From Cloacibacterium normanense (lineage in GTDB: Bacteria; Bacteroidota; Bacteroidia; Flavobacteriales; Weeksellaceae), in contig NZ_CP034157.1 in assembly GCF_003860565.1 (NCBI RefSeq), positions 1,240,001-1,304,000 of the forward strand: a DNA stretch of 64,000 bases. Reading direction: 5' to 3'. The notes beneath the pieces are model-generated. The model saw only the letters and a program-made list of their open reading frames with translations. It was not told where the DNA came from and searched no databases. A program made the position numbers and the translations under genes. Below are positions 10,142 to 38,201 of this stretch, piece by piece (within the stretch, counting starts at the first letter, position 1; each line of letters opens with the position of its first letter).

Positions 10142-10486
10142 ATGCCAAGATCAGTAAACGCTGTAGCGTCTAGAGCGCGCAGAAAAAAAGTTTTAAAGCA
10201 GGCTAAAGGTTTTTTCGGTAGAAGAAAAAATGTTTGGACTGTTGCTAAAAATGCCGTAGAAAAAGCAATGCAATATGCTTACCGCGGTAGAAAAGAGAAA
10301 AAAAGAAGCTTCAGAGGACTTTGGATTACCAGAATTAACGCTGGAACTAGAGAACACGGAATGTCTTACTCTCAATTTATGGGAGCTCTTAAAAAGAACA
10401 ACATCGAGCTAAACAGAAAAGTTCTTGCAGACCTTGCAATGAATCATCCAGAAGCTTTCAAAGCTGTTGTAGATCAAGTAAAATAA
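10142..10486 (+). CDS. rplT: 50S ribosomal protein L20
   Basis: This is an rRNA-binding protein needed early in 50S assembly (114 aa). The N-terminus [26 protein letters not shown] and the central [19 protein letters not shown] are characteristic of bL20. It is the last gene of the translation block, and a perfect-stem terminator follows 26 nt after the stop. Confidence 0.98.
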
Positions 10487-10512
10487 TGTAAAACAAATTT
10501 GTTATCAATAAT

Positions 10513-10545
10513 AAATCCTAAACTTTTTTAGTTTAGGATTTTTTT
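10513..10545 (+). terminator. Rho-independent terminator after rplT
   Basis: AAATCCTAAACT (10513-10524) pairs with AGTTTAGGATTT (10530-10541), followed by T-residues. It separates the ribosomal block from the trp operon promoter, which begins only about 20 nt later. Confidence 0.9.
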
Positions 10546-10561
10546 ATTTCAAAAACTTTTA

Positions 10562-10569
10562 TAAATTTG
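10562..10569 (+). promoter_or_regulatory. Predicted -7 box of the trp operon
   Basis: TAAATTTG is an exact TAnnTTTG match and ends only 5 nt before the ATG of the trp leader peptide. The transcript would therefore start at or within a few bases of that ATG, making the leader peptide mRNA leaderless or nearly so. Confidence 0.7.
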
Positions 10570-10574
10570 TCCCA

Positions 10575-10652
10575 ATGAAAATGAATAATAACAAAAATTG
10601 GTGGTGGCACTTATACTCTACGCTGAGTCTAAGTAATACTGCTATGCTTTGA
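10575..10652 (+). CDS. trpL: trp operon leader peptide (25 aa, three consecutive Trp codons)
   Basis: This is a short frame from ATG 10575 to TGA 10652 with the core KNWWWHLY. TGG codons lie at 10599-10607. It precedes trpE and an intrinsic terminator and is the sensor of a transcription attenuator. When charged tRNA-Trp is scarce the ribosome stalls on the Trp codons, leaving bases 10621-10630 free. When Trp is plentiful it reaches the stop codon and covers them. Codons 16-19 double as the antiterminator strand. The family role is established for enterobacterial trpL. The assignment here is from sequence alone, but the run of Trp codons before a trp operon is hard to explain otherwise. Confidence 0.92.
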   Translation: MKMNNNKNWWWHLYSTLSLSNTAML

Positions 10653-10720
10653 ATCTATACTACAATAAAATTCATTTCATGAGAAGACTTCAGCGATTAT
10701 ACCGTTGAAGTCTTTTTTTT
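10621..10720 (+). promoter_or_regulatory. trp attenuator: antiterminator and terminator
   Basis: The terminator stem is AAGACTTCA (10684-10692) with TGAAGTCTT (10706-10714), then a T-run to 10720. The competing antiterminator is CGCTGAGTCT (10621-10630, inside the leader peptide frame) with AGACTTCAGCG (10686-10696), ten pairs with one bulge. The two structures share 10686-10692 and are mutually exclusive. Confidence 0.9.
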
Positions 10721-10736
10721 ATTTAAATCTTTAATT

Positions 10737-12170
10737 ATGCTGACAACCAACAACCAACAACCCACAACTAAAATAAAAACCACCTCCAAATCATTGATGG
10801 GAGACCTTCATACAGCGATGGGAATTTACCTGAAACTCAGAGATAAATTCAGAGATACTATTCTACTGGAAAGTGCCGACCACAATGTAAATAACAACAG
10901 TTTTTCTTACATCGCCATCAACGCAATTGCAGGAGTAGAAATTAAAAATCTACAGGAAATGGAAGTGAAATTTCCATTAACCGCTCCAGAAAAACATCAA
11001 ATCCCAGAGAATTTCAACATCACTGAATATTTAGAAAATTTTTCTAAAAGTTTTGACTGCGAAAAGGTGAAAAATCCAGTTGAAAAAATGGCTCAAGGTT
11101 TATTTGGTTATACCAGTTTTGATGCCGTACAGTTTTTTGAAACTATCCAATTCAAACCTCAAAGCAAGGAAGTAGAAATTCCCATTTTACGTTACCGATT
11201 TTATCAATATGTGATTGCTATTAATCATTTTAATGATGAAATGTTCCTCATCGAAAATAAAATTGATGGGCTAAAATCTAAAATTTCAGAAATTGAAAGC
11301 ATCATTCAAAATAAAGACGTTGCACTCTATCCTTTTGAAAAAATAGACGAAGAAACTTCTAATTTAAGTGATGAAGAATACAGAGATTTGGTAGAATTGG
11401 CGAAGAAACATTGTTTCCGTGGAGATGTTTTCCAGTTGGTTTTGAGCAGAAGATTTGAACAAAAATTCAAAGGTGATGAGTTCAATGTTTACCGAGCTTT
11501 ACGAAACATCAATCCTTCTCCTTACCTATTTTTCTTTGATTATGGCGATTACAAATTAATGGGTTCAAGTCCAGAAAGTCAGTTGATTATTCAAAATCAC
11601 AAAGCCGTAATTCACCCAATTGCAGGAACTTTCCGCAGAACTGGCGATACTGAAAAAGACTTACTATCGGTAGAAACCCTAAAAAAAGACCCAAAAGAAA
11701 ACGCAGAACATACCATGTTGGTAGATTTAGCCAGAAACGATTTAAGCAAATTAGGAAAAAACGTAACGGTGTCTAAACTGAAAGAAATTCAATTGTTTTC
11801 TCACGTTATTCACATGGTTTCAGAAGTTACCGCAGAATTAGACGAAAAAACCAATCCTTATGAAATGATTGCCACCACTTTTCCGCAAGGAACATTGAGT
11901 GGTGCTCCAAAATATAAAGCTCTTGAACTCATCGATGCTTACGAAAAATCTTCTCGTGGTTATTATGGCGGTTGTATAGGTTTTGTAGGTTTTGACGGAA
12001 GTTGCAACCAAGCCATTATGATTAGAACATTTTTGAGCAAAAATAATACGCTTTTCTATCAGGCTGGCGCTGGAATTGTAGCCAAATCTTCCGCAGAAAA
12101 TGAGTTACAAGAAGTAAATAACAAACTAAATGCCTTGAAAATGGCAGTTAAAAAAGCAGAAAAATTATGA
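10737..12170 (+). CDS. trpE: Anthranilate synthase component I
   Basis: With TrpG as glutamine amidotransferase, this enzyme converts chorismate to anthranilate. The C-terminal chorismate-binding half is clear: ELAKKHCFRGDVFQLVLSRRF, GSSPESQLI, HPIAGTFRRTGDTEKD and PQGTLSGAPKYKALELID. It is 477 aa. The start lies 16 nt past the attenuator T-run. The first dozen residues (rich in TTNNQQP) are low-complexity and look derived from a short CAACCAA repeat, and the conserved protein begins around KIKTTSKSL. The stop overlaps the trpG start (ATGA). Feedback inhibition by Trp is expected from the family. Confidence 0.97.
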   Translation: MLTTNNQQPTTKIKTTSKSLMGDLHTAMGIYLKLRDKFRDTILLESADHNVNNNSFSYIAINAIAGVEIKNLQEMEVKFPLTAPEKHQIPENFNITEYLENFSKSFDCEKVKNPVEKMAQGLFGYTSFDAVQFFETIQFKPQSKEVEIPILRYRFYQYVIAINHFNDEMFLIENKIDGLKSKISEIESIIQNKDVALYPFEKIDEETSNLSDEEYRDLVELAKKHCFRGDVFQLVLSRRFEQKFKGDEFNVYRALRNINPSPYLFFFDYGDYKLMGSSPESQLIIQNHKAVIHPIAGTFRRTGDTEKDLLSVETLKKDPKENAEHTMLVDLARNDLSKLGKNVTVSKLKEIQLFSHVIHMVSEVTAELDEKTNPYEMIATTFPQGTLSGAPKYKALELIDAYEKSSRGYYGGCIGFVGFDGSCNQAIMIRTFLSKNNTLFYQAGAGIVAKSSAENELQEVNNKLNALKMAVKKAEKL

Positions 12171-16678: not shown

Positions 16679-16772
16679 GAGCGCCAAATTCCGCCTTCCG
16701 CTCCCAATCTTTTTTCGCCAACGCTTTTGCCATTGAAAAAAAAGGATTTCCGCTCAAGTCGGGGCGCAACTC
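16679..16772. repeat. REP-like GCGCC...GGCGC intergenic element
   Basis: A GC-richer block begins AGCGCCAAATTCCGCC and ends CAAGTCGGGGCGCAACT, with a central TTTTTTCGCCAACGC / TTGAAAAAAAAGG pair. The ends are complementary (GCGCC with GGCGC). It is a type of REP-like element I associate with Flavobacterium relatives. Only one copy is in this window. Confidence 0.5.
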
Positions 16773-16820
16773 AGAAAAAATTAGAAATTTTTGAATAAAA
16801 ATTAAACTCAAGTATTGATA

Positions 16821-17609
16821 ATGAGCCAAAAAATATATCAAATAGACGCTTTTGCAGACGCTTTATTTTCAGGAAATCCTGCAGCTGTTTGTCCGCTAGA
16901 AAATTGGTTAGATGCAGATATAATGCAAAAAATAGCCGCAGAAAATAATTTGGCAGAAACCGCTTTCACTGTTCCCGTAGAAAATGGTTTTGAAATCCGT
17001 TGGTTTACGCCAGAAGTTGAAGTAGATTTATGCGGTCACGCAACATTAGCTTCTGCTTACACATTGATGAATTTTGAAGGATTTTCAGGGGAAAAAATCA
17101 ACTTCTTTTCTAGAAACAGCGGAACGCTAACTGTAACTAAAAACGGAGATTTTTTAACTTTAGATTTTCCAAAAGACAACTTACAAAAATTGGAAGATTT
17201 AGCTATTTTCGAGAAATGTTTTGCGTATCAACCTGTTGAAGTTTATCAAGGAAAAACAGATTATTTGTTAATCTTTGAAAACGAACATCAAATTCAAAAT
17301 ATAGAACCCAACATTCCTGAAATTGCAAAAATTAATGCAAGAGGAATTATTGTAAGTTCGATTTCAGAAAATTTTGACTTTGTATCTAGATTTTTTGGTC
17401 CAAATTGCGGTGTAAACGAAGATCCTGTTACAGGTTCTGCTCACACAACATTAACTCCTTTTTGGGCAGAAAAATTGGGTAAAACTAAACTTACTGCAAA
17501 ACAAATTTCCAAACGTGGTGGCGTTTTAGAATGTGAACTCAAAAACGATAGAATTCTCATTGGTGGAAAGTGCAAAACCTATTTAAAAGGCGAAATATTT
17601 ATCAAATAA
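16821..17609 (+). CDS. PhzF family isomerase/epimerase-like protein
   Basis: This belongs to the PhzF / diaminopimelate-epimerase fold family. The first half has QIDAFADALFSGNPAAVC, the acid residue in NLAETAFTV, and VDLCGHATLASAY. The second half has GPNCGVNEDPVTGSAHTTLTPFWAEKLGK. These are the hallmark motifs in order. The 262-aa length is right. The true substrate is unknown, and most family members are not phenazine genes. It lies between trpB and trpA with only 12 nt to trpA, so it is co-transcribed with trp genes. I chose ATG 16821 over an in-frame TTG two codons before. Confidence 0.9.
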   Translation: MSQKIYQIDAFADALFSGNPAAVCPLENWLDADIMQKIAAENNLAETAFTVPVENGFEIRWFTPEVEVDLCGHATLASAYTLMNFEGFSGEKINFFSRNSGTLTVTKNGDFLTLDFPKDNLQKLEDLAIFEKCFAYQPVEVYQGKTDYLLIFENEHQIQNIEPNIPEIAKINARGIIVSSISENFDFVSRFFGPNCGVNEDPVTGSAHTTLTPFWAEKLGKTKLTAKQISKRGGVLECELKNDRILIGGKCKTYLKGEIFIK

Positions 17610-19826: not shown

Positions 19827-20183
19827 TTACGATTTATTATTTCTGGCTGACTTTATTGATGCAACAATAATCGCTAAAATTTCGTTGGCTTCACTTAATA
19901 ATTTATGAATTAATTCTTTATGATTTACTGTTTTTTCAAGCAATATTTCAAGAAAAAAAATACATTCATCACATTCTTCTTCTACTATTTTGAGTTTATT
20001 GATAAAATCATTACTCGATTTTGCCCTAGAAACTACTCTATAATTTGCGCCAACAGACAATTCTGCTCTTCCTAACTGATTTTCAATTAATTTAAAAGTT
20101 TTAGAATTAGGTAAAATCTCTAACAATTCTAAAATATCCAAAGAAAACTTTTTGGTGCGATTTCTCAATTCTAAAGAATTCAT
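19827..20183 (-). CDS. Four-helix bundle protein (S23 / 23S rRNA intervening-sequence family)
   Basis: This 118-residue, all-helical protein resembles the S23 (four-helix bundle) family, which was first seen encoded in 23S rRNA intervening sequences and often occurs as a lone passenger gene in Bacteroidota genomes. Recognisable elements are the early FSLDILELLEIL helix, GRAELSVGANYRVVSRAKS, and FINKLKIVEEECDECIFFLEIL. Its function is not known. It is inserted between hisA and hisF, in the same direction, and flanked on both sides by TTACGATT-type repeats. This suggests acquisition as a cassette rather than a his role. Confidence 0.8.
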   Translation of the reverse strand: MNSLELRNRTKKFSLDILELLEILPNSKTFKLIENQLGRAELSVGANYRVVSRAKSSNDFINKLKIVEEECDECIFFLEILLEKTVNHKELIHKLLSEANEILAIIVASIKSARNNKS

Positions 20184-26197: not shown

Positions 26198-26205
26198 CAA
26201 ATATA
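26198..26205 (-). promoter_or_regulatory. Predicted -7 box of the his operon
   Basis: On the minus strand this reads TATATTTG, an exact TAnnTTTG match 19 nt before the leader peptide ATG. It implies a 5' leader of roughly 14 nt. Confidence 0.7.
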
Positions 26206-38024: not shown

Positions 38025-38201
38025 ATGCAGATAGACTGCATACATAAGCTATTTCTTTGCATTGTAAATCATCAGGAGCTTCCAGAAAATACCGGAACAC
38101 CAACCGAGAGACCAAAATCCACGGTGGTAAAGTATGAGGGCATCCGCCAAAATATAAGGTTATACCCACAACTTTTTCCTGCTGATAAAAATAAAATTTA
38201 A
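38025..38201 (+). CDS. Possible small protein (58 aa)
   Basis: This is an open frame from ATG 38025 to TAA 38199-38201 with moderately complex sequence (NHQELPENTGTPTERPKST, YEGIRQNIRLYPQLFPADK). It fills the 204-nt gap between the WYL gene and the next frame and starts 12 nt after the WYL stop. The GC content is higher than its surroundings. No family is recognised and there is no other proof of coding. Confidence 0.35.
   Translation: MQIDCIHKLFLCIVNHQELPENTGTPTERPKSTVVKYEGIRQNIRLYPQLFPADKNKI

Follow-up and report, generated by a model that had tools for sequence, protein, structure and literature searches.

In Escherichia coli, the trpL leader is preceded by a 5' UTR that carries a Shine-Dalgarno site, and the operon is also repressed by TrpR. 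In Bacteroidota, leader-peptide control of trp is already known, as follows from the name of the Rfam family RF01692, Bacteroid-trp (Weinberg 2010, PMC2864571), and from the leader-peptide attenuators reported for Flavobacterium psychrophilum (PMC9723704). Leaderless leader peptides are also already known, in Sinorhizobium and in mycobacteria. The first bases of the Sinorhizobium meliloti trpL (rnTrpL) transcript are reported to be the ATG of its leader ORF (PMC7298713, citing Bae and Crawford 1990), and leaderless polycysteine attenuators have been described in mycobacteria (Canestrari 2020, cited in PMC9031893).

The mRNAs of Bacteroidota are reported to be naturally without Shine-Dalgarno sequences (PMC6847099), and the choice of start codons by the ribosomes of this phylum is still being worked out. 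Leaderless mRNAs make up a reported 5.5% in F. psychrophilum (PMC9723704), 87% of the mRNAs of F. johnsoniae have a leader longer than 10 nt (PMC6847099), and in B. thetaiotaomicron about 3.7% fall under 10 nt (PMC7366714). A near-leaderless start is uncommon in this bacterial group.

We analysed a stretch of 64,000 nt (hereafter the window; positions 1,240,001 to 1,304,000 of contig NZ_CP034157.1, assembly GCF_003860565.1) of Cloacibacterium normanense. The genome that carries it is a single contig of 2.76 Mb, and the TrpE encoded in the window has 98% identity to C. normanense TrpE. The parts of the locus upstream of trpE, the coding frame of its leader peptide, the conserved alternative pairing, and the conserved spacing between promoter box and start codon were computed directly. 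The locus is almost certainly a Trp-codon attenuator. The fuller reading, in which the trp operon is under ribosome-mediated attenuation and the leader peptide is also read from a message that starts at the AUG or one base before it, is probable.

The attenuator upstream of trpE

The attenuator stretch sits between trpE and the ORF at 10142-10486, which we take to be rplT (Table 1). The terminator of rplT would end the preceding transcript just upstream of the trp promoter; about 20 nt lie between the end of its stem and the TAnnTTTG box. At the other end, the attenuator terminator finishes 16 nt upstream of trpE. Further trp genes follow trpE on the same strand, and we take the ORFs at 12167, 12813, 13929, 14818, 15483, and 17622 to be trpG, trpD, trpC, trpF, trpB, and trpA, respectively. 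An ORF between trpB and trpA (16815-17609, + strand) presumably encodes a protein resembling a PhzF-type epimerase. A Flavo-1 RNA (16683-16770, - strand, 46 bits) lies antisense within the trp operon directly past trpB, and elsewhere in the window a SAM-I/IV riboswitch was found at 38064-38164 (+ strand, 52.6 bits).

Table 1. Features of the trp leader region, in window coordinates.
Feature	Position	Strand	Remarks
Intrinsic terminator of upstream rplT	10513-10541	+	T tail reaches about 10545
-7 promoter box TAAATTTG, exact TAnnTTTG	10562-10569	+	Sole exact + strand match between 10400 and 10600
Predicted +1: either A at 10574 (message A-AUG) or A of the ATG at 10575	10574-10575	+	From box-spacing rule and base counts
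Leader peptide ORF MKMNNNKNWWWHLYSTLSLSNTAML	10575-10652	+	25 codons; conserved frame
Three Trp codons (TGG TGG TGG), codons 9-11, predicted stall site	10599-10607	+	
1:2 protector hairpin, 10609-10618 with 10625-10634	10609-10634	+	
Segment 2, antiterminator 5' strand, CGCTGAGTCT	10621-10630	+	
Segment 3, AGACTTCAGCG, common to antiterminator and terminator	10685-10695	+	
Attenuator terminator hairpin and T run	10683-10720	+	
trpE, first gene of the regulated operon	10737-12170	+	

A preliminary description of this DNA had proposed a complete trp attenuator with a 25-codon peptide containing three adjacent Trp codons. We located all of its parts: the leader ORF with its TGG run, a protector hairpin, an antiterminator, and a terminator. 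The antiterminator proved real and shared with the terminator; its 3' strand, placed at 10686-10696, was off by one and is corrected to 10685-10695. The terminator was likewise confirmed, with 10683 replacing 10684 as its first base.

The sequence from 10560 to 10737 folds with an energy of -41.5 kcal/mol (z = -4.79), and none of 200 shuffles was equally good. Pairing of 10599-10606 with 10637-10644 extends the protector hairpin through the Trp codons. The antiterminator joins segments 2 and 3 with one bulged U; its duplex energy is -14.3 kcal/mol, whereas 200 dinucleotide shuffles averaged -6.3 and never equalled it. The terminator is formed by the arms 10683-10695 and 10703-10715, with the T run at 10713-10720. 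Helices 2:3 and 3:4 are mutually exclusive. As in leader-peptide attenuators, antiterminator and terminator are thus alternatives with a common strand, a pairing for which the shuffle p value is weak in many relatives. Segment 2 starts 13 nt past the last Trp codon; given the size of the ribosome footprint, a stalled ribosome would therefore cover segment 1 and free segment 2.

The length of 25 codons is peculiar to the window strain, all six other leaders from the same genus (L092-L097) having 20 codons. Four of these six align with one extra base just 3' of segment 2. The window leader is one base shorter there, and its altered peptide tail (25 versus 20 codons) results from this difference, which falls at 10633-10652 and leaves the antiterminator and terminator strands intact. 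The second ATG (10581) was set aside as a start codon: it is missing in a leader of the same genus (L001/L093), and it is the distance between the first start codon and the Trp run that is conserved.

Conservation of the leader peptide and of the alternative pairing

The sample consisted of the best 80 of 530 TrpE relatives and of 100 more trpE upstream regions (54 from the same family and 46 from others), for a total of 181 regions, the window included; at least six genomes are present twice. A leader with WW or WWW was present in 80 of the 80 TrpE relatives of the first set (79 with ATG as start codon and 1 with GTG in the same register), and a Trp-run leader ORF in 167 of the 181 regions. 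No leader was recognised within 430 nt in the other 14 regions, five of genus g16 and nine of other families, one of which (L157) ends early at a contig end. In the g16 region L116, a leader was located about 1.3 kb from trpE. The assignment of two regions (L017 and L101) as without a leader was overturned, as each has a GTG start 4 nt past an exact box, which suggests leaderless GUG initiation for these two trp leaders.

The start codon and the first Trp codon are 24 nt apart in 135 of the 167 leaders (115 of 130 from the family, 20 of 37 from other families) and 27 nt apart in 23. We also applied a frame test that is independent of ORF calling to 160 TGGTGG loci upstream of trpE, which are not independent cases because the sequences are related. 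ATGs located 9-45 nt 5' of the TGGTGG run were in frame 204 times and in the other two frames 0 and 7 times. A stop codon between -24 and +9 was found in frame at none of the 160 loci, and in the other frames at 133 and 84 of them. The window leader thus has the short ORF that characterises leader-peptide attenuators, in which codons for the product of the operon form a run and which is kept as coding sequence.

For the alternative pairing, 31 divergent leaders of the family remained after near-duplicates had been removed from 115. In a swap test, each segment 2 was paired with its own terminator arm and with that of every other species, relatedness being ignored; one row (L042), in which the wrong downstream hairpin was taken as terminator, was kept. 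The mean for segment 2 with its own arm was -11.63, compared with -9.09 for swapped arms, and for the terminator arms the values were -15.88 and -10.99 (0 of 20,000 permutations in both cases). A segment 2 does not in every case pair best with its own arm, because arms are common to many relatives. Coordinated changes were also observed: GCTG/CAGC in Cloacibacterium and genus g2 corresponds to CGTC/GACG in Chryseobacterium, and genus g29 has another pair. Segment 2 starts 9-14 nt past the Trp run throughout the set, L042 excepted. The protector hairpin has a mean z of -1.27 in these leaders, with z below -1 in 19 of the 31. In relatives, the Trp run is found throughout the first set, and own pairing is better on average.

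An alignment of relatives had been suggested as a check for covariation. Own pairs are stronger on average, and bases change in a coordinated way. A shuffle test of the antiterminator in single sequences gives less support: it reached p <= 0.05 in 32 of 48 family regions among L092-L145, 31 of 79 loci in the first set, and 6 of 36 regions from other families, and it fails in 13 of 13 leaders of genera g10, g21, and g28. An antiterminator was sought in these genera and in the f2 family and was not placed. Taken across relatives, the shuffle and swap results indicate a classical three-helix design for the window's own clade and an antiterminator that differs or is weaker in another group of relatives. 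The trp leaders L111-L113, L121-L128, L140, and L141, which form a second class, carry the terminator arm AAAGGCTTGTCG or a similar one; the duplex test found no significant antiterminator in this class.

Promoter box, predicted start, and the his leader

As described earlier, an exact TAnnTTTG box ends 5 nt upstream of the leader ATG, the five bases between them being TCCCA. The window contains 103 exact boxes (45 on the + strand and 58 on the - strand), and two of these are followed by an ATG at 4 or 5 nt, one at the trp leader and the other at a 9-codon ORF. Probable promoters of F. johnsoniae are reported to have 4 or 5 nt from box to start (PMC6847099), and the box of F. psychrophilum to lie at -12 to -5 (PMC9723704). 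Applied here, the published distance would put +1 at 10574 or 10575, and at the A of the AUG for leaders with a spacing of 4.

An exact box precedes the start codon by 4-5 nt in 108 of 130 family leaders, two of them with GTG starts, a count with a mild bias in that, among alternative starts, those with a box at 4-6 nt were given preference. Without this preference, the exact box is found at 4-5 nt in 74 of the 79 ATG leaders of the first set. The spacing is 6 nt in 3 of the 130 family leaders; the tight spacing is not universal, given that the box is further off in 4 and that no exact box occurs within 40 nt in 15. Among the 37 leaders of other families, the spacing is 4-6 in 9 and 7 or more in 18, and 10 have no exact box.

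The bases around the predicted start were also counted. In spacing-5 leaders, the position 5 nt past the box is occupied by A in 34 of 35 cases, and the base before it is C in 32 of 35. In spacing-4 leaders, the same position is the A of the ATG, with a C before it in 62 of 77; here, a start with 5 nt past the box would drop the A of the AUG. An A at this distance, usually after a C, fits the expectation for a start site. With its spacing of 5, the window leader resembles leaderless mRNAs, in that the promoter spacing predicts a start at the start codon. We infer the start site and leaderless initiation from this spacing, and consider it very likely that the trp message begins within a base of the leader AUG. 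The proposal of a start at or next to the ATG thus gains strong, though indirect, support from the spacing kept in the family, the published box distance, and the rplT terminator a short distance upstream.

The leader of the his operon, MKNLNLIHHHHHLI (26178-26134, - strand), has a terminator-like hairpin upstream of hisG, and its box (26198-26205) lies 19 nt before the ATG. Among the his genes there is also a 118-aa ORF (19827-20183, - strand), whose product presumably resembles a four-helix-bundle (S23-type) protein. Thirty genomes of the family with hisG were compared, 21 of which were scorable, with an exact box at both leaders; one leader or one exact box was missing in the remaining 9. 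The his spacing was larger than the trp spacing in 21 of 21. In 18 of these the trp spacing was 4-5 and the his spacing 12-20, and across all 21 the his spacing was 12-23. Because the his spacing is larger in the same genomes, tight spacing here belongs to the trp leader and is not general to leader peptides. The idea that leader peptides are leaderless in Bacteroidota generally was rejected on these his distances and on the trp spacing of 7 or more in other families.

In the genome as a whole, TAnnTTTG-N4-ATG occurs 122 times, compared with 39 for a reversed-pattern control, about a threefold excess; the corresponding numbers are 74 and 39 for N5, 84 and 62 for N3, and 82 and 67 for N6. An ORF of 60 codons or more opens at 15 of the 30 spacing-4 sites examined. 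The excess at spacing 4, together with these ORFs, suggests a set of ordinary leaderless genes in this organism.

Proposed regulation and comparison with known systems

We infer a response to Trp that would proceed as follows. RNA polymerase would start at 10574 (or 10575), and a ribosome would load on the 5'-terminal AUG with the polymerase still nearby. With ample charged tRNA-Trp, the ribosome would clear the three Trp codons (codons 9-11), segment 2 would be held in the 1:2 hairpin or beneath the ribosome, and the 3:4 terminator would form, ending transcription near 10720 after about 147 nt. With scarce charged tRNA-Trp, the ribosome would halt at 10599-10607 and mask segment 1 (10609-10618); segment 2, just past the edge of the ribosome, would pair with segment 3, so that no terminator would form and trpE onward would be transcribed. 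Attenuation that depends on the Trp codons, as first suggested for this locus, is supported by the anatomy, the conservation of the frame, the conserved alternative pairing, and the place before trpE.

That the hairpins act without translation of the peptide, for example through a protein or a small molecule, is highly improbable. Translation of the leader peptide is itself a prediction from sequence, which favours such control; however, the Trp run is conserved, the frame test gave 204 ATGs in frame against 0 and 7, and none of 160 loci has an in-frame stop. A search of this genome gave no match to the TrpR or TRAP family, although control genomes matched, and no Rfam family reached its cut-off in the leader stretch. 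The attenuator could also be real with transcription starting further upstream, from another promoter or by readthrough from rplT, in which case the leader would have an ordinary 5' UTR. A box motif alone cannot prove a promoter, two box-like sites matching at 5 of 6 positions occur at 10494 and 10529, and the mRNAs of relatives are mostly leadered in the reported figures (in F. johnsoniae 87% have more than 10 nt, and in F. psychrophilum 5.5% are leaderless). The rplT terminator, however, separates the site at 10494 from the leader and contains the one at 10529, the box at 10562 is the only exact + strand box between 10400 and 10600, and the 4-5 nt spacing is retained in 108 of 130 family leaders. 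We therefore regard an upstream start as unlikely.

Opinion is evenly poised on whether the message is leaderless and the tight spacing nothing but inherited compactness with no part in attenuation, which would be compatible with the anatomy of the preferred reading. Spacing 4 is enriched genome-wide, with half of the sites examined (15 of 30) opening an ORF of at least 60 codons, and Trp leaders of other families lie at a spacing of 7 or more in 18 of 37, so that attenuation seems to work without tight spacing. Against this, the spacing stays at 4-5 while the number of codons between the start and the Trp run varies, and the his spacing is larger in every scorable genome (21 of 21). Returning to the Trp-codon attenuator with a near-leaderless start, we tentatively propose that the position of the trp promoter is tied to the start codon in the Chryseobacterium-Cloacibacterium family; the sensing peptide would then be read leaderlessly from a 5'-terminal AUG or GUG, and ribosome loading would be part of Trp sensing. 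Whether leaderlessness itself matters for Trp sensing is rather doubtful, and the changed initiation kinetics relative to a Shine-Dalgarno-driven trpL, envisaged in the preliminary description, might follow from it.

Under this proposal, the 5' UTR of the his leaders in the same cells would stay at roughly 8-19 nt, and trp would take a leaderless route that is rare among the mRNAs of the phylum. The ribosome could initiate once the AUG emerges. The regulator would be a conserved one whose timing depends on prompt ribosome loading, and the terminated RNA of about 147 nt would be a ready leaderless mini-message, perhaps with additional functions of the kind reported in Sinorhizobium. With a trp leader that is near-leaderless and a his leader that is not, a single genome would offer two naturally matched cases of use for studying leaderless initiation, and how it is coupled to transcription, in this phylum.

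The locus has Trp codons near codon 10, a protector, an antiterminator, and a terminator in common with E. coli trpL, and differs in that this genome has no TrpR match. The comparison with the enterobacterial mechanism, made in the preliminary description, misses closer parallels in RF01692, in the attenuators of F. psychrophilum, and in the leaderless trpL of Sinorhizobium. Our search for a leaderless leader peptide in Bacteroidota covered the open-licence literature, mostly titles and abstract openings, and found no report.

RF01692 is a Trp peptide leader RNA of Bacteroidetes, and its weak match in the window aligns the start codon and the Trp codons, in register before trp genes in a member of the Bacteroidota. 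The match scores 27.4 bits, below the gathering cut-off of 49 bits; RF01692 had no match in four genomes of this genus, the window's own included, and the cut-off is exceeded in relatives with the same leader type and a spacing of 5 (G026, G048, and G045). The available source material for RF01692 is silent on leaderless translation. F. psychrophilum belongs to the same phylum and has leader-peptide attenuation upstream of amino-acid operons, but the accessible part of its description names neither trp nor leaderless leader peptides (PMC9723704). The trpL of S. meliloti is, like the locus described here, a trp attenuator with a transcript starting at the leader ATG; the host is an Alphaproteobacterium, the 5' end is known there and predicted here, and roles in trans have been reported for its RNA and peptide. 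The mycobacterial attenuators, which sense cysteine and belong to Actinobacteria, share with the window leader a leaderless short ORF, predicted in our case, with contiguous codons for the sensed amino acid.
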